This document shows positions 3,936-15,971 of a stretch of DNA of 22,445 nucleotides, one piece after another. The position numbers and the translations under genes were made by a program. The first letter of the stretch is position 1. Every line of letters starts with the position of its first letter. The notes below the pieces were generated by a model. The model had not been told where the DNA came from, searched no databases, and worked only from the letters and a program-made list of their open reading frames with translations. The DNA comes from a virus, in the IMG/VR virus record IMGVR_UViG_3300022745_000519, positions 1 to 22,445 of that record; one strand, written 5' to 3'.

Positions 3936-4168
3936 CTTCGCTGCCTCGTCGGCGCCAGCGCCCTAGGCTCGAATGTCAGGTTGACTTTCATGCTTGGGCT
4001 GTTTCGCAGCGGGTCTGTTGGCGCGCGCAAGGGCAACCGCGCGATCGGTTCCTGCCTGCTCGCGTTCGGGTGCGTGTGTATCGCGAGCAATTCCTTCCTG
4101 CTCGGCGTGAATGGGCGTGGAATGGCTGGTCGTCGCCCTTTGGCAACTATCGCTGGAACTGGTTCTGA
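3932..4168 (+). CDS. Small Trp/Arg-rich protein directly before the large terminase
   Basis: This 78-residue frame begins with GTG overlapping the previous stop (GTGA) and ends with TGA overlapping the terminase ATG (TGATG at 4166-4170). It fills the 232-base gap exactly, a strong sign of real translational coupling. The composition is striking: seven tryptophans, many arginines, and a repeated R-x-FLPAR element (DRFLPARV and EQFLPARREW) reflected in two near-identical 16-base DNA segments near 4050 and 4091. No known domain, signal peptide or membrane helix is evident. A competing frame at 3981-4268 was set aside because it would overlap the terminase by about 100 bases. Function unknown. 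Confidence 0.5.
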   Translation: MTSLPRRRQRPRLECQVDFHAWAVSQRVCWRAQGQPRDRFLPARVRVRVYREQFLPARREWAWNGWSSPFGNYRWNWF

Positions 4169-5607
4169 TGGATCGGAAAGCACTCCAAGAACTTGTGCGT
4201 CGTGGGCGAGTAGCAGAGCGAATCATCTCGGGATTCGACGGACCTTCGCGCGCGTTTTTGCTCGATAAGAAGCGCAAGAAAGCTGCACGGTGCGGGCGTC
4301 GTTCGGGTAAGTCAACGACGCTCGCAGGCAACTATTGTCTGACAGCCAACGCGCACCCGAACGAAACTAGCGTGTTCATTGGGATCTCAGCGGCCCGCGC
4401 GGACGAAGTGATTGGGCGTGCGTTTCGCATCCTGAACAAGGAATTGCAGTTGCATCGCTTTGGGGCCACACCCAAGCGTACAACGCGCGCCGGGCAGCTT
4501 TACTACGTGTTTCCCAACGGTCACAAGCTGTGGGTCGCAGGCTGCAAAAACAGAGTGGATGCGGAAAAGTTCCGCGGGGATCCCTACTGCTTGGCTGCGG
4601 TCGACGAATGCGATTCGATGCGCGGGCACTTGAAGTACCTCATCAATGAAGTGCTCGGCCCGTCAATGCTCGACTTCAACGGCCAGATCGCATTGACGGG
4701 AACACCTGGCGTTACTCCGGAGGGCTTCTTTTACGACATCAGCACCGGCGCAATCAAAGGCTGGGGGTTGCATCATTGGACCGTGCGAGAAAACTCGCAT
4801 ATGCCTCACGCCGAAGAGTGGCTCCGCGAACAGCGCGAAGAACTCGGACTTGACGAGAACTCGGCCGCTTACTTGCGCGAATGGCTTGGGCAATGGGTGC
4901 TCGATCTCGAGTCGCTCTGCTATCAATTCGATCTCGATCTCAATACGTTCGAGGTCGACCCGGTGCTGGCTGCCGGCTATCGGATAGTGATTGGAGTCGA
5001 CCTTGGGGTGAACGATGCGACTGCGTTCGCTGTCTGCGCCTATCGCCCGGGGGATCCCGACATCTGGACGTTGGAGGCCTCATCTTGGAACAATCTGAGC
5101 CCTTCGGCGGCCTATGCGCGGCTGCGCACCTATCTGCAGAAGTACCCCCAAGCTCGCGTTGTGGCGGACACTGGCGGGCAAGGATTGGCTTTCGTCAAGG
5201 AATGGCAGGACTCGTTCAACTTCTACGCCGAGCCTGCCAAGAAGCTCGACGTCGCAGGCCAGATCGCATTCATGAACGGCCTGCTCAAGTCGGGCGTGCT
5301 GAAAGTGCATACCTACAACTGCCGCACGTTGCGACGGCAGATTATGGCCACTCCCTGGGATGAGAAACGCAAGGGGCACGCGCCTGACTACGACGACCAC
5401 GAACTGGACGCATGGCGCTATGCTGTGCTCGCCATCAGGACGGGCTACACTGCGGAACTCGAACCGCCCAAGGAAGGCTCCCCCGAGGCCGTGCAAGCGG
5501 CTTTGGCCGAGCGTAAACGGCGGGTGTTCGAGCGTATGCGAAAGAAGCAAGGCTCGTTGATCTACACGCCAGAAGACCCAACAATCTATCTGCCAATGGC
5601 AGCATGA
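4168..5607 (+). CDS. Terminase large subunit (ATPase/nuclease packaging motor)
   Basis: TerL pumps DNA into the procapsid using ATP and cuts the concatemer. From the ATG at 4168 the protein is 479 residues. It shows a Walker A loop GRRSGKST (43-50), a Walker B strand with the catalytic pair (CLAAVDE, 141-147) and the coupling motif ALTGTPG (175-181). The RNase H-like nuclease half has its acidic residues in IGVDLG (D278), VVADTGG (D334) and DDHELDAWRY (about D409-D414). All key residues are present. The ATG at 4168 is preferred to one at 4111 because it forms a TGATG junction with the upstream gene. The portal gene follows seven bases after the stop, the standard phage order. Confidence 0.95.
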   Translation: MDRKALQELVRRGRVAERIISGFDGPSRAFLLDKKRKKAARCGRRSGKSTTLAGNYCLTANAHPNETSVFIGISAARADEVIGRAFRILNKELQLHRFGATPKRTTRAGQLYYVFPNGHKLWVAGCKNRVDAEKFRGDPYCLAAVDECDSMRGHLKYLINEVLGPSMLDFNGQIALTGTPGVTPEGFFYDISTGAIKGWGLHHWTVRENSHMPHAEEWLREQREELGLDENSAAYLREWLGQWVLDLESLCYQFDLDLNTFEVDPVLAAGYRIVIGVDLGVNDATAFAVCAYRPGDPDIWTLEASSWNNLSPSAAYARLRTYLQKYPQARVVADTGGQGLAFVKEWQDSFNFYAEPAKKLDVAGQIAFMNGLLKSGVLKVHTYNCRTLRRQIMATPWDEKRKGHAPDYDDHELDAWRYAVLAIRTGYTAELEPPKEGSPEAVQAALAERKRRVFERMRKKQGSLIYTPEDPTIYLPMAA

Positions 5608-5613
5608 GGCATC

Positions 5614-7527
5614 ATGAGATCTCTACCAAACACCGAATGGCAATCGCTCACCGAAACCAAACTGGCAGACGAATTGAAGAAGGTCGTCACCGAGCTTTGG
5701 AACAATGACACGGCGCGCCGGTCTCTGATGCTAGACCGTGTTTCGCGCTACGAGTCGTTTCGGTATCAGAGCGTCGACCCATTGGACAAGCGCAATGGTG
5801 AGTCAATGGTGACCAAACGTGGCACGGCAATCTGCTGGAACTTGAGCCATTCGATCATCTCGAGCGTTGTTTCGAAAGTAGCCGCGCAGCAGCCCAAAGT
5901 GCGCACCGTTTGCAGCGATGCGGATTGGGCGACACGTCGGCGCGGTCGCAAGATTGACCAGTTCGTCGAAGGCCTTTGGACGCAACGGCAGGCGCAATAC
6001 GCCGATATCTGGGAGATGGCCTCCTACATGCTTCGCGACTGCTTGGTGTGTCAAGTCGGCTACATCAAGACAGACGCCGATCTGTCCCCCGGGGTGGTGC
6101 GGAATACGCGTCCACAGCCGTGGGAGGTACTCTACGACCCAATTGACGCGCGCGACGGCAATCCGCGGCACGTCTTTCTTCGCTATCCCGAGGATATTGG
6201 AGTCCTGAAGATGCGCTACCCGGGAAAGGCGGCGGTGATTGATGCCGCTCGCACATTCCGTCTTTCTGGATTCGCTGAGAATGAAGTCATTGCCGGCACG
6301 ACATTGGAGACTTTCTCGGGCGTGGCTACGGTCTCCGACCAATTACTCTGCTACGAGTGGTATTCTTTGCCGCTTGATGACGAGCATCCTGGTCGCCATG
6401 TTATCGCGGTCGACGGCGGTACGATCCTAGAAGACGTTTGGGAAGCGCCTGACTTCCCCATCGCGGCGCTCTGGTACGAACGTGCGCAGTGCGGCATGCG
6501 AGGAATTGCGCTTTCGGATATCATCGAGACGATTGACGAAGAGTTGAACGACCTCCTAGGGCGCATCACGAAGTGCGTTCGCTATACGTCGATGAACATC
6601 CTTTACCAGCGTGTCGGCGCGTCGGCTGTCGCCAGCGTACCCGACGATGATTGCATCAAGATTGAATACGAGGGCACCGATCCGGGGCTGCGATTCGAGA
6701 CCCCCGAGCCCTTCTCGCAGCAACACTTGGAGCTATTGCGCGTTCATGAAGATGCCGCCCATCGGTATACTGGTGTTTCGCAGGCGCTGACCACCGCGCA
6801 GAAGCCCTCAGGTGTGGATGCCGGCGTAGCCATCCGGATGGTAGAGGACAAGCAGTCTGAGCGCCTATCGCAGATCTGGACCGCGTTTACTGGCGTGTTT
6901 CCCACTGTTGCCGCCAACTCTATCCGTGCGGTGCGTGCCATCGCGTCCGGTGATTCAGAGAGCGGGAGGCAATTCTCAGTTCGTCGCGCTGGCGACCAAT
7001 TCTTGAATTCGATCAATTGGGAGCAAGTCGAACTGGAAGAGGACAAGTTCGTCTTTCAACTAGCCAAAGCGCCGACCATCAAAGGAACGCCAGCAGACCG
7101 CGCGCAGAAAATCGAGGAATACTTCGCACGCGGGTTGATCTCGGCTGATGCATACGCGGCCGCGATGTCATCGCTTGACACATACCAGATTGACGAGGAC
7201 ATTACTCGCCAACGCCAAATCATCGATCAGCAAATGGAGACATGGCTTGACGCTACGCCAGAAGAACTCGAGTCCGGAGTGCTGGAAAGCGGGCGAGACT
7301 TGTTCCAACCCCCGCATCGCTGGATGCGGTTGGAGGACGCTTTGGTGCAGGTTGTTGACGGCTACATGCAAGCCGAACTAGACCAAGCACCGGATGAAAT
7401 CCTGGAACTATTCACGCGCTGGATTGAACTGGCGCACGACGAAATCATCAAGAAACAACAGAGGCAGGCAGCAATTATGGCGCAAGCGGGCGGCGCACTG
7501 CCACCACAACAAGGACCGGCACAGTGA
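5614..7527 (+). CDS. Portal protein
   Basis: This 637-residue protein directly follows TerL, with GAGG overlapping the terminase stop as its ribosome binding site. The portal is the dodecameric ring at one capsid vertex through which DNA enters and leaves. Supporting features are the early helical region (LKKVVTELWNN, RYESFRY), a QPWEVLYDPIDARDG stretch near 168-182, a long helix around 300-320 (SDIIETIDEELNDLLGRI) and the YTGVSQAL...SGVDAGVAIR segment at about 385-408. Portal proteins of P22-like and related podoviruses have similar stretches. The C-terminus is Gln/Ala-rich and probably flexible. Length suits a P22-like (long) portal. Its stop overlaps the scaffold ATG. Confidence 0.85.
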   Translation: MRSLPNTEWQSLTETKLADELKKVVTELWNNDTARRSLMLDRVSRYESFRYQSVDPLDKRNGESMVTKRGTAICWNLSHSIISSVVSKVAAQQPKVRTVCSDADWATRRRGRKIDQFVEGLWTQRQAQYADIWEMASYMLRDCLVCQVGYIKTDADLSPGVVRNTRPQPWEVLYDPIDARDGNPRHVFLRYPEDIGVLKMRYPGKAAVIDAARTFRLSGFAENEVIAGTTLETFSGVATVSDQLLCYEWYSLPLDDEHPGRHVIAVDGGTILEDVWEAPDFPIAALWYERAQCGMRGIALSDIIETIDEELNDLLGRITKCVRYTSMNILYQRVGASAVASVPDDDCIKIEYEGTDPGLRFETPEPFSQQHLELLRVHEDAAHRYTGVSQALTTAQKPSGVDAGVAIRMVEDKQSERLSQIWTAFTGVFPTVAANSIRAVRAIASGDSESGRQFSVRRAGDQFLNSINWEQVELEEDKFVFQLAKAPTIKGTPADRAQKIEEYFARGLISADAYAAAMSSLDTYQIDEDITRQRQIIDQQMETWLDATPEELESGVLESGRDLFQPPHRWMRLEDALVQVVDGYMQAELDQAPDEILELFTRWIELAHDEIIKKQQRQAAIMAQAGGALPPQQGPAQ

Positions 7528-8681
7528 TGGACGATCTAGAATTGCAAGCACAAGAGGCGAAGATTATTCAACAATTCAATGATGACTTTGCGGCTGAACG
7601 CTACAAGGCCATCCAAGCTGAATCACAACCCGCGGGCGAGAAAGAGTCCAGCGAAGAGTCCAGCGAAGAGTCCAGCGAAGAGTCCAGCGAAGAGTCCGAA
7701 GAGACCGAAGAGTCCAGTGAAGAGACCGAGAAGAAGGGCAAGGCGCAAGCCAAAGAAGGCAAAGCCAAAGAAGGCAAGGACAAGGACAAGGGCGTTGGGC
7801 TGTCGGTGGAACAGTTGCGCGCGCTAGCCAAGGAAGGCAAAGGCGCCGAGCTGTTCCAAGCGCTGGGTGTCGACCCGAAAGGGCTCAACGTGCCCTCTGA
7901 CAGGTACGCTAAGCTTCGGCAAATGCAGCAACGGCACAACGCCGACATGGCCGCGCGAGAAAGCGCCGTGTCCGCCAAAGAGCAATTGCTGACCAATGTG
8001 CTCGCGGCAAAGACCGCGCTGGACAATGGCGACATTGTAAGGGCGCTGGAGCTATTCACGGGCAGCCCGCTCGATGTGGTGTCTGAAAAGGCCATGCGTC
8101 AGAAGCTCAACTACGATCCCGAGGCCGCCAAACGGGACGCCGAGCTGGAAAGGTACAAGAAAGCGGAAGCCGAACGACTCAAGCAAGCCGACCTCGAGCG
8201 CGTTCAACAAGCTGAAAAGGCGAAAGTAGAGCGCTATTTAGGGCAGGTGAAAGACGCCTTCCTGAGCGGGGACAACCCGCTATTCGCGAAGTTGGCCGAA
8301 ACAGACCCGGATTTCGTCCCTCACGTCTACAGAATGCAGCTGGATGTGGCCAAAAAGGAGGGAATTGACATTCCCGCCGACGAGGCCGCCGAAAGGTTGG
8401 TTGCCGCCGTCTCACCAATTGCTAAGATGTGGGTGAAAGCGCTCGGACTTCTCAAAGAGCAAGAGGACGACGAGGGCAAGAACAGCGACCGGGCGGCGAA
8501 ACAGCCCGCGAAAACCAAGCAAGCCGGGAAAGCGCTTGACGACAAGAAGAAGAAAGCGGGCTCCAATCCCACTAAATCGAAGTCGAAGGGCGAATTGACC
8601 GAAGCGGACTTGATGGCGCAATTGATGCGCGACATTGAAGAAAGCCGGAAAGGTTCTTCCGACGAAGACGACGAGGATTGA
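7527..8681 (+). CDS. Scaffolding protein (capsid assembly)
   Basis: This 384-residue, highly charged protein lies between portal and major capsid protein, the classic scaffold position. The ATG at 7527 overlaps the portal stop (TGATG). Residues about 39-68 are an acidic Ser/Glu repeat, followed by a Lys-rich stretch to about 89. Residues about 195-238 form a charged helix likely to be coiled coil (ERYKKAEAERLKQADLERVQ). The C-terminus has a Lys-rich region, then helix and an acidic end (SSDEDDED). Scaffold proteins are helical, charged and lack enzymatic motifs, as here. They bind coat protein through a terminal helix and leave or are degraded before DNA fills the head. No protease motif was noticed. 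Confidence 0.78.
   Translation: MDDLELQAQEAKIIQQFNDDFAAERYKAIQAESQPAGEKESSEESSEESSEESSEESEETEESSEETEKKGKAQAKEGKAKEGKDKDKGVGLSVEQLRALAKEGKGAELFQALGVDPKGLNVPSDRYAKLRQMQQRHNADMAARESAVSAKEQLLTNVLAAKTALDNGDIVRALELFTGSPLDVVSEKAMRQKLNYDPEAAKRDAELERYKKAEAERLKQADLERVQQAEKAKVERYLGQVKDAFLSGDNPLFAKLAETDPDFVPHVYRMQLDVAKKEGIDIPADEAAERLVAAVSPIAKMWVKALGLLKEQEDDEGKNSDRAAKQPAKTKQAGKALDDKKKKAGSNPTKSKSKGELTEADLMAQLMRDIEESRKGSSDEDDED
7644..7730 (+). repeat. 12-bp tandem repeat encoding Glu-Ser-Ser-Glu
   Basis: Four perfect head-to-tail copies of gagtccagcgaa occupy 7644-7691, followed by degenerate 9- and 12-base units to about 7730. Because the unit is a multiple of three it keeps the reading frame and lengthens or shortens the acidic Ser/Glu segment of the scaffold. 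It is a likely site of slippage length variation. Confidence 0.9.
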
Positions 8682-8686
8682 CGAGA

Positions 8687-8703
8687 CCGCGAAAGCGGGT
8701 TTT
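8687..8703 (+). promoter_or_regulatory. GNRA-tetraloop hairpin at the start of the capsid gene
   Basis: CCGC-GAAA-GCGG (8687-8698) is a 4-bp hairpin with a GAAA tetraloop, followed by GTTTT, ending two bases before the likely GTG start at 8705. It could be a weak terminator, an RNA-processing stem, or a structure controlling initiation of the capsid gene. The short stem makes all of these tentative. Confidence 0.4.
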
Positions 8704-8704
8704 C

Positions 8705-9970
8705 GTGGCTACTCTCAACACTATTGATGCTTTGATGAAGTTGAATTATGGCACCGCTGATCGCATTCAGCGGTGTCTCGGCAAGGACTTTCCTACCTAT
8801 ACGAAAATCAAGAAGAAGACAGGCGCCGTCAATGCATCCGGTCAGATGCTTGTTGCGCCTGTCATCTTCAGTAACGTGCAGTCTATGGCTGGCACGCTTG
8901 CGACGGCGCAAACGGTAGCGGCCACGTCTGGCGGCTCGATGAAGTCGAAGCGTTGGACCGTGCCCTTCGGCGACTATTCCGCCGCTGTCACGTTCGAGCG
9001 GAAGATGCTCAAGCTGTCGTCGTCCGACATGGGGTGCTACATCGACGCCAAGAAAGAGGAAATCAAGAGCATGTATCGCCAATGGGCGGCCATTTTCTCT
9101 TGGTACCTGCTGAACACTAAGGGGCGCTCGCTCGGGCAATTCACGATTTCGTCTGGGCTCTGCACGCCGGTGAATCCGGAGGATATCGTCAATATCAGCC
9201 CCGGAATGGTGCTTCAGGCTTCAGCCAATAGCGGTGACTCAGGAACCGATACGCTGCTCGGCTCCGGCAGCCTTGGGTATGTCATCAACGTCAACCCCAA
9301 CGCTCCCACGTTCACCGTGGCCACGTCCGACGGCGGATCGGCTGCCACCCCATCGGGCTGGACCGGGACGATGCATGCGTTCCGTTATGGCGACTTCGGT
9401 GGCAGTGGCGCTACCGTCATTTGCGATGGGTTCGGCGACTGGTGTCCGGCATCTGACCCGAGCGCCACGCCGTTCAACAACATTGATCGGACGGCGCATA
9501 TCACCGCGCTGTCTGGCGTGCGCATCCCGACCGCGGAGCTCACGCTGCTCAACAACGAGAACCGAATCAAGCGGCTCATCACTCGAATGGTTACGCGCGG
9601 ATTCGGACCTCCGAAGTGGATCTCGCTGTCGCCTGACAAGTGGCAAGATGTGGCGGACGGGTTGGAGAGTCGCGGCCTTCGAACGTCTTTCGGCAAAGAC
9701 GCCGAATTCGGCTACGATACGATCAATGTCACTGCAGGCGGTGTTACCGTGCCTTGCATCGCGGAGAAATTCCAGCCTTCGACGGCCATCTACGCATGGG
9801 GTGAGGATTGCCTGGTACTCCACAATCCGGAAGAGTTCCCGGCGGTCGTCAATGACGACGGGCTCGAGATGCTCCGGAAGGCCAACACCAACGATTTCGA
9901 GCTCCGCTTGCAGGCGTACCCCGCAACGCTCGGCATCCCGGGCTTGATGGGTCGTTGCCCCGCGGCATAG
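8705..9970 (+). CDS. Major capsid protein
   Basis: This protein of about 421 residues follows the scaffold and should form the icosahedral shell, probably with the HK97 fold. It starts MATLNTIDALMKLNYGTADR if the GTG at 8705 is used. A TTG at 8678 overlapping the scaffold stop would add nine residues. Features typical of capsid proteins are the helical N-arm, the KRWTVPFGDYSAAVTFERKML strand-helix region, Gly/Ser/Thr-rich loops in the middle (IVNISPGMVLQASANSGDSG), and a C-terminal AYPATLGIPGL segment. No ATG or good ribosome binding site stands at the start, odd for the most abundant virion protein. A hairpin sits there instead. A strong terminator follows the stop. Confidence 0.85.
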   Translation: MATLNTIDALMKLNYGTADRIQRCLGKDFPTYTKIKKKTGAVNASGQMLVAPVIFSNVQSMAGTLATAQTVAATSGGSMKSKRWTVPFGDYSAAVTFERKMLKLSSSDMGCYIDAKKEEIKSMYRQWAAIFSWYLLNTKGRSLGQFTISSGLCTPVNPEDIVNISPGMVLQASANSGDSGTDTLLGSGSLGYVINVNPNAPTFTVATSDGGSAATPSGWTGTMHAFRYGDFGGSGATVICDGFGDWCPASDPSATPFNNIDRTAHITALSGVRIPTAELTLLNNENRIKRLITRMVTRGFGPPKWISLSPDKWQDVADGLESRGLRTSFGKDAEFGYDTINVTAGGVTVPCIAEKFQPSTAIYAWGEDCLVLHNPEEFPAVVNDDGLEMLRKANTNDFELRLQAYPATLGIPGLMGRCPAA

Positions 9971-9993
9971 TCCAAGACAGATTGTAAAACGAG

Positions 9994-10025
9994 CGCCAGC
10001 GGTTCGTTTGAATCGCTGGCGTTTT
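9994..10025 (+). terminator. Intrinsic terminator after the capsid gene
   Basis: CGCCAGCG (9994-10001) pairs with CGCTGGCG (10014-10021). GTTC and GAAT extend the stem to about 12 pairs around a GTTT loop, followed by TTTT (10022-10025). It lies inside the structural gene array, so it probably reduces transcription of downstream head and tail genes relative to the capsid gene. Confidence 0.85.
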
Positions 10026-10044
10026 CATAATAGGAGATTTTCAG

Positions 10045-10422
10045 ATGGGAAATTGGGCAAACGAGCAAGACACAAGTCCGGCACGCAACGCGTCCGCGCG
10101 TAGCCTCTGCAGGTTCATCAAAGTAATCACGATTGGCGCGACCGGTGCAGTCGGCGCCATCGACACAGAAAAGGTCTATGGCGGCATCACTCGCACTAGT
10201 GCCGGGCTGTATGCGTTGACGTTCCCTAAGGGGCGTAACGCGTTCATCCAGGCGTATATCATCGCCGCCGGCACTCCTGTGGTGCTGCCGATGGCCTACC
10301 CGCAGAGCGTCAACGCAGGCGCCGGGACGGCTAATATTCTGTTCACCAATGCGTCTTTCGCCGCGACTGACCCGGCCAATGGCGACAAGATTCAATTGAT
10401 CATTGAAGTCGAGCGGAGCTAG
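10045..10422 (+). CDS. Probable capsid decoration (cement/head fibre) protein
   Basis: A clear AGGAG at 10032-10036 precedes the ATG by eight bases. The 125-residue product is beta-rich, with alternating strands (FIKVITIGATGAVGAI, YGGITRTSAGLYALTF), Gly/Ala/Asn loops and a C-terminal ATDPANGDKIQLIIEVERS ending. That arrangement, including the ADPANGD-hydrophobic-strand end, resembles small beta-sandwich proteins commonly found immediately after the major capsid gene in phages and thought to decorate the head. No enzymatic motif is present. The assignment rests on composition and position, so a small tail or fibre protein remains possible. The following gene starts three bases after the stop. 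Confidence 0.6.
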   Translation: MGNWANEQDTSPARNASARSLCRFIKVITIGATGAVGAIDTEKVYGGITRTSAGLYALTFPKGRNAFIQAYIIAAGTPVVLPMAYPQSVNAGAGTANILFTNASFAATDPANGDKIQLIIEVERS

Positions 10423-10424
10423 GC

Positions 10425-10658
10425 ATGCCCAAGCCCGGGAAACTCACGCTTAGAATGCTGTTGATGCCCAAGCCCGGCGGTGCCGAATCGCCTGAAGACG
10501 ACGACGAGATGGAAGAGTCCGCCGAGTCTGAATCCGAAGGCGGGGATGAGCTACCGCCGGGCTTGCTCGAGGCTGTGTCAGAGATGCGCTCGGCTTCTTC
10601 AGACGAAGACGCTGCCAGGGCTTTCAAAAACGCAATGCACTGTTGTGGGAGAATGTAA
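10425..10658 (+). CDS. Small acidic head-region protein with duplicated MPKPG start
   Basis: GGAG (10415-10418) precedes the ATG at 10425. The 77-residue product is very acidic in the middle (EDDDEMEESAESESEGGDE) with a helical C-terminus (EDAARAFKNAMHCCGRM). The first 14 coding bases, atgcccaagcccgg, are repeated exactly at 10464-10477, so MPKPG appears twice in frame and there are two possible start sites. The extra 13-residue N-terminal piece looks like a duplication. Family not recognised. Position between the decoration protein and the adaptor suggests a head-completion or small internal role, without direct evidence. Confidence 0.6.
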   Translation: MPKPGKLTLRMLLMPKPGGAESPEDDDEMEESAESESEGGDELPPGLLEAVSEMRSASSDEDAARAFKNAMHCCGRM

Positions 10659-10661
10659 CGC

Positions 10662-12281
10662 ATGACCGTTCGGACGCTATCCAGTTTGGATGCCAGAATC
10701 AAAGAGCACTACGATTTAGTAGGGTTTGATGCACGGTATCCGTCAACGCTGATCTATTCGTTCATCAATGAGGCTTATCGGTCGTTGCGAGACCGGCTAG
10801 CGTCCGACGGTTGTTTACTGTTCGCGGAAGTGATCGAAGCCTCGATCGCCACGGCGGGGCGCTCGAGAGATTCGCTGGGAACGCTTTTACCTGTGACTCG
10901 ATTCGGGCAACTGTCCACAGTCGTTGGTGTATGCGTGCAAACACCACGGGGCTGGCGCAAGCTGCAGAAGTTGGAGCGCGAAGGCTCCACACTTCAGACG
11001 TCTGGGCAGCTGCCGGCGCCCCATTACTGGAACGCCCGCGTCACGGACTCGGGCGGATTGCAGGTGGAAGTGCTGCCAGCATCCACCACTCTGGACGTGT
11101 TCCGCGTTACAGCCGTGCGCGCTTGGGTAGAGCTCACTCAGGCATCGGACACCGTTCTAGTGGACTACGGCATTGAAGACTACTTGATCGCGGCCGCCGG
11201 CGCGGCCATCTCCGAGCGAGATATGGACGCCGAAGCGTTGGCATTCCGTACGGCGCGGGCCACCGCACTCTATGCCGACGTGAAGAAACGCGCATCGAAT
11301 CGAACGCTAGGGGTGACACGCAGGGAGCACGGCAGAGACGATCTGTTCCCAATTGTTGATCAGGCTGCAACTTCGGCGGTGCACGTCGGGCCTTCTATTA
11401 TCGCCATGCAAATGGGCGATGACGTGTTGTATCGAGTCTACAACGGCTTTCGATTGTTACGAAATCGGCAGGCGCCAGCGTCTAGCACTGTCCAGATCGG
11501 TGGACAGTTGTTCTTTTGCAGCGATGGCGGGGGCAATTTCTGGTGTGCTAAGGCGAACACCAAGCAGGTGGTTTGCTACAACGTAGCCACGGGCAAAGTC
11601 ATCAAGTCAGTGACGTTGACGGAAAGCGCCGGACCCATTGCTTGGGACGGCAAGGACAGCCTTTATTGTGCGTCCGCCTCCGGAGCGACACCAGTATTTA
11701 TCATTTCGATATCTGCCGGCGTTGTGACTAAAGCGATGACTTTCAGCTACGCGGCACTGCATGTCGTTCGTGACATGTCCGGGTACATGTGGCTAATTCA
11801 CGACGTAAATGCGAGAGCCAACCGAATAGGCATCGACGATCAATTGACAGCAGGCTCAACCCTGACAATTCCGGCGGGGTACTATGGTCGATGCGCAGTA
11901 GACGACCGCGGTAAGATCTATTTGCCTAATTACACTGACGGCAATCTATATTACACAGATACGAATGTTCTGGGGACCATTTGGTCGGTTGCGTTGGGCG
12001 GAGAGCCCATTTGCGCGCTATTCGACGGCAAAGACCACATGTACGTTGCATTGCGAACTGGGTTTGGGGTCGCTCGTGTGCACGTCGACACTTTCGCAGT
12101 CACATCGTCCATTACTGGGATCAACGAGCCGCGAAGCCTAGCACTCGATAATGACGGGCACGTGCTTGTCACTGGCAAAGGAAAAAAGCTGTACGCCATC
12201 GGTATAGATTCGGGCGTGATTGAATACACGGACACACTCGAGCATGAGGCTACTGAATTGACCGCGCTGATCGAGGCATAG
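10662..12281 (+). CDS. Head-tail adaptor fused to a C-terminal beta-propeller
   Basis: GGGAG at 10647-10651 precedes the ATG. The 539-residue product has two parts. Residues 1 to about 220 look like a phage adaptor protein, which docks under the portal. They show an N-terminal LIYSFINEAYRSLRDRLASD helix, a beta region (ESQ-less, GGLQVEVLPA), and a DYGIEDYLIAAAGAAISERD helix followed by a basic helix ending VKKRASNR. Residues about 240-520 form four or more repeats of about 45 residues with a DGxGxxW/Y/V-hydrophobic strand pattern (WDGKDSLYCAS, DDRGKIYLPN, DGKDHMYVAL, DNDGHVLVTG), typical of NHL/YVTN-type beta-propellers. Adaptors are usually about 150-250 residues, so the propeller is an extra domain. 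It may be a built-in tail appendage or receptor-binding surface. Confidence 0.72.
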   Translation: MTVRTLSSLDARIKEHYDLVGFDARYPSTLIYSFINEAYRSLRDRLASDGCLLFAEVIEASIATAGRSRDSLGTLLPVTRFGQLSTVVGVCVQTPRGWRKLQKLEREGSTLQTSGQLPAPHYWNARVTDSGGLQVEVLPASTTLDVFRVTAVRAWVELTQASDTVLVDYGIEDYLIAAAGAAISERDMDAEALAFRTARATALYADVKKRASNRTLGVTRREHGRDDLFPIVDQAATSAVHVGPSIIAMQMGDDVLYRVYNGFRLLRNRQAPASSTVQIGGQLFFCSDGGGNFWCAKANTKQVVCYNVATGKVIKSVTLTESAGPIAWDGKDSLYCASASGATPVFIISISAGVVTKAMTFSYAALHVVRDMSGYMWLIHDVNARANRIGIDDQLTAGSTLTIPAGYYGRCAVDDRGKIYLPNYTDGNLYYTDTNVLGTIWSVALGGEPICALFDGKDHMYVALRTGFGVARVHVDTFAVTSSITGINEPRSLALDNDGHVLVTGKGKKLYAIGIDSGVIEYTDTLEHEATELTALIEA

Positions 12282-12283
12282 CC

Positions 12284-12670
12284 ATGCCAAAGCTGAAAAG
12301 ACTACAATCCCTTAGCCCGCTTCCGAGCGAAGTTCAGACCACATTCAGGGAGCTTGAAGAGAACGTGCGCAAGGTCGTCGAAGGTGGCGATGCCAGTTCG
12401 CGCATTGTCATTGTTCGCGCCGGTGTGTATCGCCCTACAATAGGGCAAATTCTGATTTGCACATCAGACGCAACTTCGGCCACAAGCATTATTCTGCCAA
12501 CTCCGACAGAAGCAATTCGCGGCGAAGAAATTGTAGTGGTGCGCCAGGCGGGCAACCCGACTATTTCGGCGCTTCAATCGACAATAAACGGGGTGGCAAC
12601 TTGGACTATTGCGGCGTCCAGGGCTGAACAATTCATTGCCGCCATTGACGGATGGATCACCTATGTCTAA
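12284..12670 (+). CDS. Small beta-rich tail/fibre-domain protein
   Basis: GAGG at 12273-12276 precedes the ATG by seven bases, and only two bases separate it from the adaptor stop. The first about 35 residues are helical and charged (SEVQTTFRELEENVRKVVEG). The rest is beta-rich with the pattern IGQILICTSDATSATSIILP, then EEIVVVRQAG, TINGVATWTI and a C-terminal AEQFIAAIDGWITYV. That order (strand, TLP-like turn, ING turn, final GW strand) resembles small beta domains often found in phage tail fibres and head or tail decorations. It is too short for a full fibre. Being between adaptor and nozzle, it may be an attachment or tail-tip protein. Family not certain. Confidence 0.55.
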   Translation: MPKLKRLQSLSPLPSEVQTTFRELEENVRKVVEGGDASSRIVIVRAGVYRPTIGQILICTSDATSATSIILPTPTEAIRGEEIVVVRQAGNPTISALQSTINGVATWTIAASRAEQFIAAIDGWITYV

Positions 12671-15600
12671 TTTCTCGAGAATCGCAGTCGACCTCGGCGC
12701 TGACTACCAGCGACGCGATGAGCGCACGGGCGGGCCACGCGTGACACATTTGGTCAACATGCGTGTAGCGGAGCCGGGACGCCTTGAGAAAACGCAAGGG
12801 TATATTGATTCTGTAACCTACACGGTGGATGGAAACGTCGGCGATCTGCTTGCGTGCGGGGTTACTCCGCAAAGCATGGCCTTTCGGCTCTTGCGGAGTA
12901 ACTCCAGTGGCTCCGCAGTCGGCGCTCAAGTCTACATCGGGTCCAATGATAGTTCAGGTGGAACGCAGTGGTTCCCGTGTCAGAAATTGCCGTCGCAAGA
13001 CGTCACGTGTGTCAATGACGAAGAAGCTCCGACAGTCATTCCCATATTTCAGGGGGAGCACACTTTCTACACCAATTGCGGGGTTGTAGAGATCCCAGGC
13101 GACCGACAATTCGTCTTCGCCGACTCAGAGGACGAATTAGCCTATCACTCTATTCACCTGGCATTGGTGCAGTTTGGCACCGAAAAAGGGGAGGTAGTTT
13201 ACAGAAGAGTGCAAGGCACAAGTCTGGTGCCCGGGGAGCGCTCCTGGGTGACATCGGCCGGGAAATATATCGCTTTCTATCACACGTCTACTACGGTTCG
13301 GATCTACTACTTTGCAGTAGGCTATATTTCGCCGCAATTCCTTTGCACAATATCCGGAGTTACTCCGACCGGATCGTCTACACCGCTGGCACTGACCTAC
13401 GATGCTGCAGCCGATCGGCTGTTGTTGGTCGACGGCGCCTGCATGTTTTGGCTCATCAATGGGACGACTGGCGCCGTCACGCGGAACGCTACGCTTGGTG
13501 CTCCTTTGGTTGTCGGCTTGATAAATTACTTGAACGTGGCGGCCACAGGGTACCAAAATCACTTCTATGTGGTTTGGTACAATACGCCAAATTGGTCCTA
13601 TGTAATTTATTCTATTTCGGACTCTGCCGCTTCGACTGTTTCTTCTGGGACAGTTTGCGCCATCGCGGGCGCTCCACTGCCTAATACGGCCACCATTTGC
13701 TATCAGCCGCAAATAACGGCGTGGTATAATTCAGGCTACGTATCACAACCAGAAGGGGCCGTGGTGTCAGTGTACCAAGCACCCCGGCTCGGTATGGCTG
13801 CTGCTTTCTCGAGTGATTTATACCTGCTCGGGCCTAGCGGTGTCATTGCCAGAACCACTGCTGGATTTGACACTTTCGCGTCCGTAGCGGCTTGTGCCCC
13901 AATCATCTGTCCAAGAGAGTCGGAGTCGCGCCCCATATTCCGTACTTGGGTGTACCAAAACTCCGCTCGAACAATTCGCGGCGCAATGATGCTGGCGCAA
14001 AGCACCGAGCGCTACACGGGCCCGGTGTGCTACCCCCAGATAAAAGCTTCCGTTTTCGAAGGCGGGCTATATCCGTCGACGCCAATCGAAACTAACATTG
14101 GCGCTGTGCAAAAATCGGCGTTCATCAACTACTTACCGCCGTTTTTGGCGACGTATCGCAAAGGATGGCTGACGGCGATACTGGCGCAAAAGAACGCCAG
14201 CTCAACCAAGAACGATGTGTATTTAGTGATCCAGCCTACCACAGGCCAACACAAGCTATCGCAGAGCACGCCGTCCGTATTCCAGCAGGCGAAGACGGCG
14301 AATGGCTTGTACTTGGCGAGCGCTATTCCGGCGCTGCTCACTCAACAATTGCAAGGGCATGGGGCGCAATTCGTTCCCGTGACGTTGATCGGCACCGCCG
14401 CGGGCGTAGGCAGCAAGCCGGTCGGTACGTATCTGTACGTGGCTATTTTGCAATGGCGGGATGACGCCGGCAACGTCTACCGGTCGCCTGTCAGCGATGT
14501 TTGCACAGTAGTACGCGCTTCTGTTGGCGCCGTACGAATTGACGCGACTGTCGATATCTGGGATCCGACCTGGATGAATGAGACGCAACTGCGCATCTAT
14601 CGCACGGTTGCAAACGGCGTCACGTTCTATCTGTGCAAAGAGTTTCCGTCGTTCAACCCTTTGGTCTTCAATACCTGGACGGATACCGCGGACGATTCAG
14701 TGATCACCACGAAAGAGGTGCTTTACACTCAAGGGGCTCGCGGCGGCATTCAGGGGTTGTTGGAGTGGTGGGGCATGCCGGGTTGCCGTTGTTGTTGGGC
14801 TGGTAGCACTCGCATGATTGCCGGCGGGCTGCAGATTGCCAATCAATATCGGGTGTCGAATCTGTACGAGCCTGGTGAGCAAATTAGTTGGCCCAACCAT
14901 CAGGCGTTTAGCGGCACCGTACCCGAAGCTATCACCGCCGTAGCAGAAATGGACGACCTGTTGCTGGTGTTTTCTTCCGGCAAGATTTGGGGAGTCGCCG
15001 GCCCTGGCCCAGACGCTTCTGGTGCGGGCAGCTTTGAACCTCCAAGAGTGCTGTCCTCGACCGTTGGCGCGCATTCAGAAGCGTCTTTGGTTGAAACTCC
15101 TGACGGCATCATGTTCCAGGCCGAGGATGCTCAAATATACCTGCTGCAGCGCGGGTCATTTCAGGTCGTCAACATGTCGGCGGAGATTTCCCGCCAAATT
15201 GGTAAGCCCATTCCAGACTACCCGTGGACCTTTTCGCCTTTCGAAGAAAATCGCGTGGACAATTGGGTAATGGGCGCGGTGTACGACTCCGACAAGCGTG
15301 AGGTATGGTTCACCGAGCGACGGCCTAGACATTGGGTGTACCAAGTTGATTACAGAAGATGGCACGCGGAAATGTGTGACGCGGACCGTAACTATGGCAA
15401 TTTCGTTAGGTCGTCTATCGGGCACGAACTGAATAGATACGGGCTGTCGCGAACCGTTCCTTTTTTCGTCATGACAAGCGGAACGACATTGAAATTGATT
15501 CGATGCGCGCAAAACGGTGACTGGTCCACGTATTTTGGGCAAGATGACGGCGCCACACACCGCTACGCGTGCGCTATGCTGAACGTCCAAGACAACCCGA

Positions 15601-15971
15601 ATGGTGCTTTGCGCCGGGTGTGGGCGACAATTTGGCGCCCCTTAGACGTTGGCGGGTTGAGCGGGGCGTCTTTGCCGCAGTGTAGTATGCTCTACTGGTT
15701 CGATCGAGGGCCGGTCGGTAACACTCCGGACGAAACGCGAACTATGATGGCGCAAAATGCGAATCCGCAGGTGTTCATGGAACTAGAAAGCGTTCCGTCA
15801 CGATTCAAGTGCAATCAATTCATGCTGTGTTGGACAGACGGGCCCTATGCCACAGCCGACAATGGGCGCCACGCGGGCATTTCATTGACGGGCTTTGCAT
15901 TTGAGGCATCGGGAACTCCGCCTAACAAGGGCGCAATTCGAACCGTAGCTGGTTCAGGAAGGACGGGCTAA
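12663..15971 (+). CDS. Tail nozzle/stabilisation protein (P22 gp10 / T7 gp12-type), very large
   Basis: The ATG at 12663 overlaps the previous stop by eight bases. The 1102-residue product begins IAVDLGADYQRRDERTGGPR plus LVNM, the usual opening of podovirus stabilisation proteins. It has repeated beta strands with hydrophobic-Gly patterns. The last third is most telling: AITAVAEMDDLLLVFSSGKI, then a VGAHSEASLVETPDGIMFQA stretch and IYLLQRGSFQVVNMSAEI, consistent with a six-bladed propeller at the tail tip. These proteins form the hexameric nozzle below the adaptor. T7 gp12 is about 794 and P22 gp10 about 472 residues, so this one is oversized. A Cys-rich GMPGCRCCWAG lies near residue 704-714. 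The stop abuts the next ATG. Confidence 0.78.
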   Translation: MSNFSRIAVDLGADYQRRDERTGGPRVTHLVNMRVAEPGRLEKTQGYIDSVTYTVDGNVGDLLACGVTPQSMAFRLLRSNSSGSAVGAQVYIGSNDSSGGTQWFPCQKLPSQDVTCVNDEEAPTVIPIFQGEHTFYTNCGVVEIPGDRQFVFADSEDELAYHSIHLALVQFGTEKGEVVYRRVQGTSLVPGERSWVTSAGKYIAFYHTSTTVRIYYFAVGYISPQFLCTISGVTPTGSSTPLALTYDAAADRLLLVDGACMFWLINGTTGAVTRNATLGAPLVVGLINYLNVAATGYQNHFYVVWYNTPNWSYVIYSISDSAASTVSSGTVCAIAGAPLPNTATICYQPQITAWYNSGYVSQPEGAVVSVYQAPRLGMAAAFSSDLYLLGPSGVIARTTAGFDTFASVAACAPIICPRESESRPIFRTWVYQNSARTIRGAMMLAQSTERYTGPVCYPQIKASVFEGGLYPSTPIETNIGAVQKSAFINYLPPFLATYRKGWLTAILAQKNASSTKNDVYLVIQPTTGQHKLSQSTPSVFQQAKTANGLYLASAIPALLTQQLQGHGAQFVPVTLIGTAAGVGSKPVGTYLYVAILQWRDDAGNVYRSPVSDVCTVVRASVGAVRIDATVDIWDPTWMNETQLRIYRTVANGVTFYLCKEFPSFNPLVFNTWTDTADDSVITTKEVLYTQGARGGIQGLLEWWGMPGCRCCWAGSTRMIAGGLQIANQYRVSNLYEPGEQISWPNHQAFSGTVPEAITAVAEMDDLLLVFSSGKIWGVAGPGPDASGAGSFEPPRVLSSTVGAHSEASLVETPDGIMFQAEDAQIYLLQRGSFQVVNMSAEISRQIGKPIPDYPWTFSPFEENRVDNWVMGAVYDSDKREVWFTERRPRHWVYQVDYRRWHAEMCDADRNYGNFVRSSIGHELNRYGLSRTVPFFVMTSGTTLKLIRCAQNGDWSTYFGQDDGATHRYACAMLNVQDNPNGALRRVWATIWRPLDVGGLSGASLPQCSMLYWFDRGPVGNTPDETRTMMAQNANPQVFMELESVPSRFKCNQFMLCWTDGPYATADNGRHAGISLTGFAFEASGTPPNKGAIRTVAGSGRTG

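Follow-up and report, generated by a model that had tools for sequence, protein, structure and literature searches.

A head–tail adaptor joined in frame to a likely β-propeller in an uncultured short-tailed phage, and the adaptor C-terminus as an apparently recurrent site of proposed host-facing appendages

Head–tail adaptors are usually regarded as small, fixed connectors that dock separately encoded fibres. The ring to which the adaptor binds is the portal. The adaptor of phage T7, gp11, has a C-terminal helix that extends out of the ring and wraps around the portal stem, near the capsid vertex (PMC6702177), and in phage SU10 twelve gp11 adaptors make a ring that docks six long fibres (PMC9509320). 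Both adaptors have a β fibre-dock domain between their helices, and the nozzles of the two phages (gp12 in T7, gp17 in SU10) contain a β-propeller as a structural part (PMC6702177, PMC9509320). The adaptor and nozzle proteins of phage OWB are directly involved in adsorption (PMC7241545). Neither adaptors of the T7/SU10 type nor propellers in the adjoining nozzle are new; no adaptor with a propeller, spike, fibre or other large C-terminal appendage was found in the open-access literature, a coverage that takes in few subscription papers. An adaptor carrying a propeller is, within the literature searched, a variant not previously reported, absence from the literature not being proof.

The DNA analysed here (the window: the whole stretch of 22,445 bases) is an IMG/VR virus fragment, IMGVR_UViG_3300022745_000519, from an uncultured phage. 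The virus is a short-tailed phage, and the gene of interest, in which an adaptor continues into a likely propeller, is surrounded by a structural module (Table 1). The window had no DNA match among 50,697 phage records, and its fusion, portal, capsid and nozzle proteins had no protein match among annotated phages; the terminase alone has distant protein matches (about 23% identity to Streptomyces phages), and no prophage relative turned up when genome contigs were scanned for the capsid. The closest kin identified fall into two sets of uncultured contigs; the two nearest relatives, the contigs behind L003 and L017, have terminases about 49–50% and capsid proteins 51–54% identical to those of the window. 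An acidic open reading frame of 77 residues (window 10425–10658) stops immediately 5′ of the fusion gene, and the probable scaffold protein has an acidic tract, SSEESSEE, repeated near its N-terminus.

Table 1. Features of the window, with positions in the window; the names portal, scaffold and nozzle come from position and synteny with relatives, without a database match.
Feature	Position (strand)	Residues	Basis or remark
Terminase gene	4111-5607		phrog_2, 8.7e-37
Portal protein gene	5614..7527 (+)		40% identical orthologues and identical gene order in L003 and L017
Probable scaffold gene	7524-8681		position and synteny with relatives
Major capsid protein gene	8678..9970 (+)		phrog_14242, major head protein, 4.5e-5; orthologues 51-54% identical
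Gene of a 125-aa protein			between the major capsid and fusion genes
Adaptor–propeller fusion gene (propeller likely)	10662..12281 (+)	539 aa	one open frame; junction from comparison with the plain orthologues in L003 (245 aa) and L017 (241 aa)
Adaptor domain	10662..11336 (+)	1-225	helix bundle, β fibre-dock domain, C-terminal arm
Linker	11337..11414 (+)	226-251	between the family's usual C-terminus and the first repeat; alignment of C-termini, low pLDDT
Likely β-propeller domain	11415..12266 (+)	252-535	six to seven blades; PDB sequence matches, blade profile, repeat statistics, low-confidence models
Gene of a 128-aa protein	12284..12670 (+)	128 aa	syntenic in L003, L017 and L115; phrog_15797 (function not assigned), 0.0012
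Nozzle (tail tube) protein gene	12663..15971 (+)	1102 aa	full-length orthologues (31-35%) in L003 and L017; position
Genes of three long proteins			after the nozzle gene; probably internal virion proteins

An earlier note on this DNA, made from the letters alone, had pointed to a second propeller-type protein nearby (12663–15971). By position and relatives this is the nozzle, of which many weaker orthologues lie downstream of adaptors in other relatives; a propeller of its own was not seen by sequence and is expected by comparison with T7 gp12 and SU10 gp17. The likeness to those two phages is that a β-propeller of the podovirus tail, seven-bladed in theirs, is adjacent to the adaptor; the difference is that theirs is in the hexameric nozzle, where it lines the channel, whereas the additional propeller of the window is a covalent part of the adaptor, the phage keeping a separate nozzle gene beside it. 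The 128-residue protein encoded between the two is kept both in relatives with plain adaptors (L003, L017) and in one with a fused adaptor (L115), and may be a reduced fibre base.

Residues 1–225 of the fusion protein are a head–tail adaptor of the T7/SU10 type, as is seen from the fold, the gene position and the orthologues, which bears out what had been read from the first 220 or so residues. The gene lies between those of the major capsid and nozzle proteins, an order common to L003, L017 and other relatives, and the products of the equivalent L003 and L017 genes match residues 1–217 at 28–30% identity. The N-terminal half has a profile match to the adaptor family at 3.6e-16. A profile made from the L003 and L017 genes and other, more distant capsid-gene neighbours detected 70 such genes in the initial loci and, with the later scans, 160 open reading frames, of which 110 are distinct in sequence; an alignment of the full adaptor set is too divergent for a profile scan of the collection. 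The predicted model, built with 45 sequences, has a pLDDT of about 90 across most of residues 1–210 and comprises a four-helix bundle with an inserted β fibre-dock domain and a C-terminal arm. It aligns to the solved adaptors of cyanophage A4, GP4, SU10 and N4 over 188–200 residues with Z of 12–15 (A4 15.3 over 197 residues; GP4 15.1; SU10 13.1, 7z47_B, over 198 residues; N4 12.4), and its matches also include Pa223 (14.3) and the VP1 adaptor. The domain is like SU10 gp11 and T7 gp11 in fold, gene position, fibre-dock domain and C-terminal arm; it differs in that those proteins end after the arm, whereas that of the window has about 315 more residues.

The Pfam family SU10_adaptor (PF24175) was matched by 24 of 31 aligned relatives at E ≤ 0.01. 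The L003 orthologue scores 22.2 bits, below the cut-off of 27, and the window domain, which has no match at E ≤ 10, also stays short of the gathering cut-off, so its kinship with SU10_adaptor runs through relatives and fold and not through Pfam membership. A search of PDB sequences with the adaptor profile found nothing, the relation to solved adaptors being visible by fold only.

The fusion reading frame has 539 uninterrupted codons from an ATG start, and both halves are in one frame, as first described; a PHROGs search with the whole protein matched nothing. When the C-termini are aligned, the L003 adaptor ends SRTPGRASRVDTRGRYR and the L017 adaptor ends NRTPGHSRRTDTRTRGTQWRW, and the window protein has NRTLGVTRREHGRDDLF at this position, followed by the linker. 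Since the plain orthologues stop where the extension starts, the extension begins at the normal C-terminus of the adaptor family. The G+C content of the C-terminal half is 0.53 (0.60 at third positions), against 0.59 (0.67) for the N-terminal half; the former resembles the nozzle and 128-residue genes, with similar codon usage, and there is therefore no sign of a chimeric join.

Seven repeat anchors were located in the C-terminal half, at residues 252, 289, 329, 371, 414, 455 and 497. The four motifs quoted in the earlier note are all present (residues 328–338, 414–423, 455–464 and 497–506), and the anchors at 289 (GGGNFWCAK), 371 (DMSGYMWLIH) and, more weakly, 252 (GDDVLYRV) extend them: the repeats stand, raised from at least four to six to seven, but the spacing of about 45 residues does not, the observed intervals being 37, 40, 42, 43, 41 and 42 (that is, 37–43, or about 41). 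The best off-diagonal self-alignment of residues 226–539 scores 73, against 41 ± 6 (maximum 58) in 30 shuffles and 30 for the N-terminal half, and lag autocorrelation peaks at 126 (z 3.8), 40 (z 3.1) and 41 (z 2.7), corresponding to three blades and one blade.

When residues 226–539 were compared with PDB sequences, all 28 matches listed were propellers, designed propeller proteins or fragments, propeller-bearing kinases or PQQ-repeat proteins, and a shuffled copy of this half matched no propeller, which upholds by sequence the proposal that it is a propeller. The designed Pizza6 matched at 3.8e-9, E-values against designed tandem repeats being inflated by their regularity; the matches to natural propellers stand, with a PQQ-repeat protein at 1.1e-4, the natural NHL domain of PknD at 1.3e-4 and YncE at 0.65. 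A blade profile made from the seven repeats matches BamB (7.7e-5) and PQQ-type propellers; matches of this profile to trichosanthin (E 0.1) were taken as chance. Among Pfam families, SGL and PQQ_2 matched weakly, and all propeller matches (NHL, SGL, PQQ_2) fell below the cut-offs. The domain has repeat length, blade motif and sequence matches in common with bacterial propellers of the NHL, YVTN/YncE and BamB types; within the material covered, none of these is joined to the adaptor of a phage.

Structure prediction, which served the adaptor half well, gave less for the propeller half: an alignment was impossible for it, so its models are poor, and folded alone, without alignment, it has a pLDDT of 43, for which reason structural matches from such models are supportive only. 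These matches (Foldseek and VIA-align) were mainly to propellers (clathrin terminal domain, WD40 proteins, WIPI, Atg18), and were either local, covering about two blades (Z 9–11), or of low global TM. From the repeat statistics and the PDB sequence matches, the C-terminal half is made up of repeats in tandem, each about 40 residues long and taken to be a single four-stranded sheet, and its fold class is very likely that of a β-propeller, which may be closed and would have six to seven blades. At the sensitivities used, viral contigs, phage records, genome contigs, nine related records and the open reading frames of fetched loci yielded nothing related to the propeller half; phage matches at E 2 and 8 were judged to be noise.

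The adaptors of the surveyed relatives are mostly plain (101 complete distinct sequences, median 238 residues). The L003 and L017 adaptors are plain, and among the 110 distinct adaptors surveyed no second adaptor–propeller was seen. A viral protein of 1165 residues, A0A5Q2W6C3, which may be a further extended adaptor, aligned over 520 columns, but with an rmsd of 30 and a TM of 0.14. The earlier picture of adaptors as short, helical proteins free of appendages holds for the nearest relatives as regards the appendage, but adaptors of the T7/SU10 type are more than helical, having a β fibre-dock domain, as does that of the window. C-terminal appendages are also found on adaptors outside the window: among the 110 distinct adaptors, those of four other contigs carry C-terminal extensions of more than 100 residues at the equivalent site.

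The adaptor of L115, a record of 38.7 kb with a single adaptor gene, has 672 residues, and its extension matches the Pfam pectate-lyase β-helix at 6.7e-6, slightly under the Pfam cut-off, and is similar to proteins of Serratia phages, some annotated as tail fibre or β-helix. L150 has two tandem adaptors (6279–8288 and 8288–10120), 58% identical over 226 residues, one with a β-helix spike like that of L115 (36% identical across its full length) and the other with fibre-like repeats that have a short module in common with a Synechococcus phage tail fibre; "fibre-like" is here partly a reader's judgement of the repeats, with database matches that are short only. L173 has a 263-residue adaptor with a Gly/Pro-rich tail (8023–8814) and, separated from it by a fibre-like gene, a second adaptor (11178–12350) of at least 391 residues with fibre-like repeats, as found also in the 944-residue adaptor of L175. 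The adaptors of L039 (6582–7466, 294 residues) and L047 (8752–9720, 322 residues) have insertions of about 40 and 107 residues within the domain and not at the C-terminus. L115, L150, L173 and L175 resemble the window in having a large domain on the C-terminus of a shared adaptor family, and differ in that the domain is β-helical or fibre-like, not a propeller, and of independent origin on the portal tree.

On the portal tree (106 rows, quick search), well-supported branches make three changes to or from the fused state necessary: in the window, in L115, and in the clade of L150, L173 and L175. Gain and loss are not distinguishable from the tree itself; as unrelated folds are found at one adaptor site, separate gains are favoured. 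C-terminal appendages have apparently been acquired by adaptors at least three times, with unrelated folds. The best reading of these observations is that the adaptor C-terminus may be a recurrent graft site for host-facing appendages, onto which a propeller would have been grafted in the window phage, and this reading is supported by the β-helix (L115), β-helix and fibre (L150) and fibre-like (L173, L175) grafts and by the three changes on the tree. The other domains at the graft site being of spike or fibre type, the propeller is taken as a built-in host-contact module, and the adaptor–propeller is probably a host-gripping device built into the neck.

The adaptor would assemble as a dodecameric head–tail ring, and its C-terminal arm would wrap the portal and then run into the β-propeller on the neck exterior, where the propeller would grip a host surface glycan or protein. 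The propeller would be either the receptor-binding module itself or a first-contact anchor, and would replace or supplement separately docked fibres. If the ring assembles as in T7 and SU10, the C-terminus lies outside the neck near the capsid vertex, with up to twelve propellers around it; the number of twelve is drawn solely from the dodecamers that known adaptors form, the propeller would be exposed outwards, and its receptor binding is suggested by the position of the graft site. That a dodecameric adaptor leads through its arm to an outside propeller, acting as a covalent, host-facing appendage that holds a host surface glycan or protein, we regard as evenly poised between right and wrong. 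Against this reading, the domain is matched in sequence by propellers of general binding or scaffold function (PknD, BamB, YncE), none of them a known phage receptor-binding fold, and since relatives of the propeller half were not found at the sensitivities used, there is no neighbour from which a function could be read. Trimers are the normal form of spike and fibre domains, and a propeller is usually self-contained, so that the analogy with the other grafts is positional and not mechanistic.

The main rival explanation is that the propellers form a structural collar, a skirt that stabilises the adaptor–portal–capsid vertex or the nozzle without direct host contact. The propellers of the T7 and SU10 nozzles are structural (PMC6702177, PMC9509320), the T7 C-terminal helix is directed to the portal stem, near the capsid vertex (PMC6702177), and the matches to BamB and PknD are to scaffold or binding propellers; yet the closest relatives, with portal, capsid and nozzle of like types, have no propeller domain, and the remaining grafts at the adaptor C-terminus are spike- or fibre-like, which leaves the collar rather unlikely.

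Two other roles are less likely than the collar. The propeller could be a docking hub for a separate fibre or spike, in place of the fibre-dock domain or as an extension of it, and make no host contact itself, in keeping with the docking of six long fibres by the SU10 adaptors (PMC9509320). Peptide binding is common among propellers, and because the window is a fragment of 22 kb, separate fibre genes may sit outside it. However, the N-terminal half retains its fibre-dock domain, and the gene intervening between adaptor and nozzle encodes 128 residues here and about 130 in plain relatives, so that, as far as the window extends, the graft comes with no change in fibres; we consider the hub improbable. 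Still further down stands an enzyme, a lactonase or lyase (SGL or Vgb type) acting at the surface to break down capsule or exopolysaccharide: the weak SGL and PQQ_2 matches and the polysaccharide-lyase-like fold of the L115 β-helix graft speak for it, but with every propeller Pfam match below cut-off and no catalytic or metal site identified it is very improbable. An artefact, in which chimeric assembly or a frameshift brought together unrelated adaptor and propeller genes in this single uncultured contig, for which no near-identical second copy was found, is barely credible given the in-frame join, the flanking gene order matching L003 and L017, the composition continuous with neighbouring genes and the same-site grafts in independent contigs.

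If a C-terminal covalent appendage has been acquired repeatedly, the connector could itself carry the means of recognising the host, and this would give a simple testable rule for locating receptor-binding modules in uncultured phages without recognisable fibre genes. The recurrence of grafts at the same site is the more interesting part, more so than the single propeller fusion. The tandem adaptors of L150 and L173 raise the question of mixed rings: the L150 paralogues have different C-terminal domains, and a ring made from both would be mixed. Tentatively, and with less confidence than in the host-gripping reading of the propeller, it may be suggested that a single lineage of uncultured podoviruses uses the adaptor C-terminus as an all-purpose socket into which host-recognition modules are plugged, that spikes, fibres or propellers are encoded in one polypeptide with the ring subunit and so come to lie at the head–tail junction in up to twelve copies, and that members with two paralogous adaptors carrying different modules would build mixed rings.
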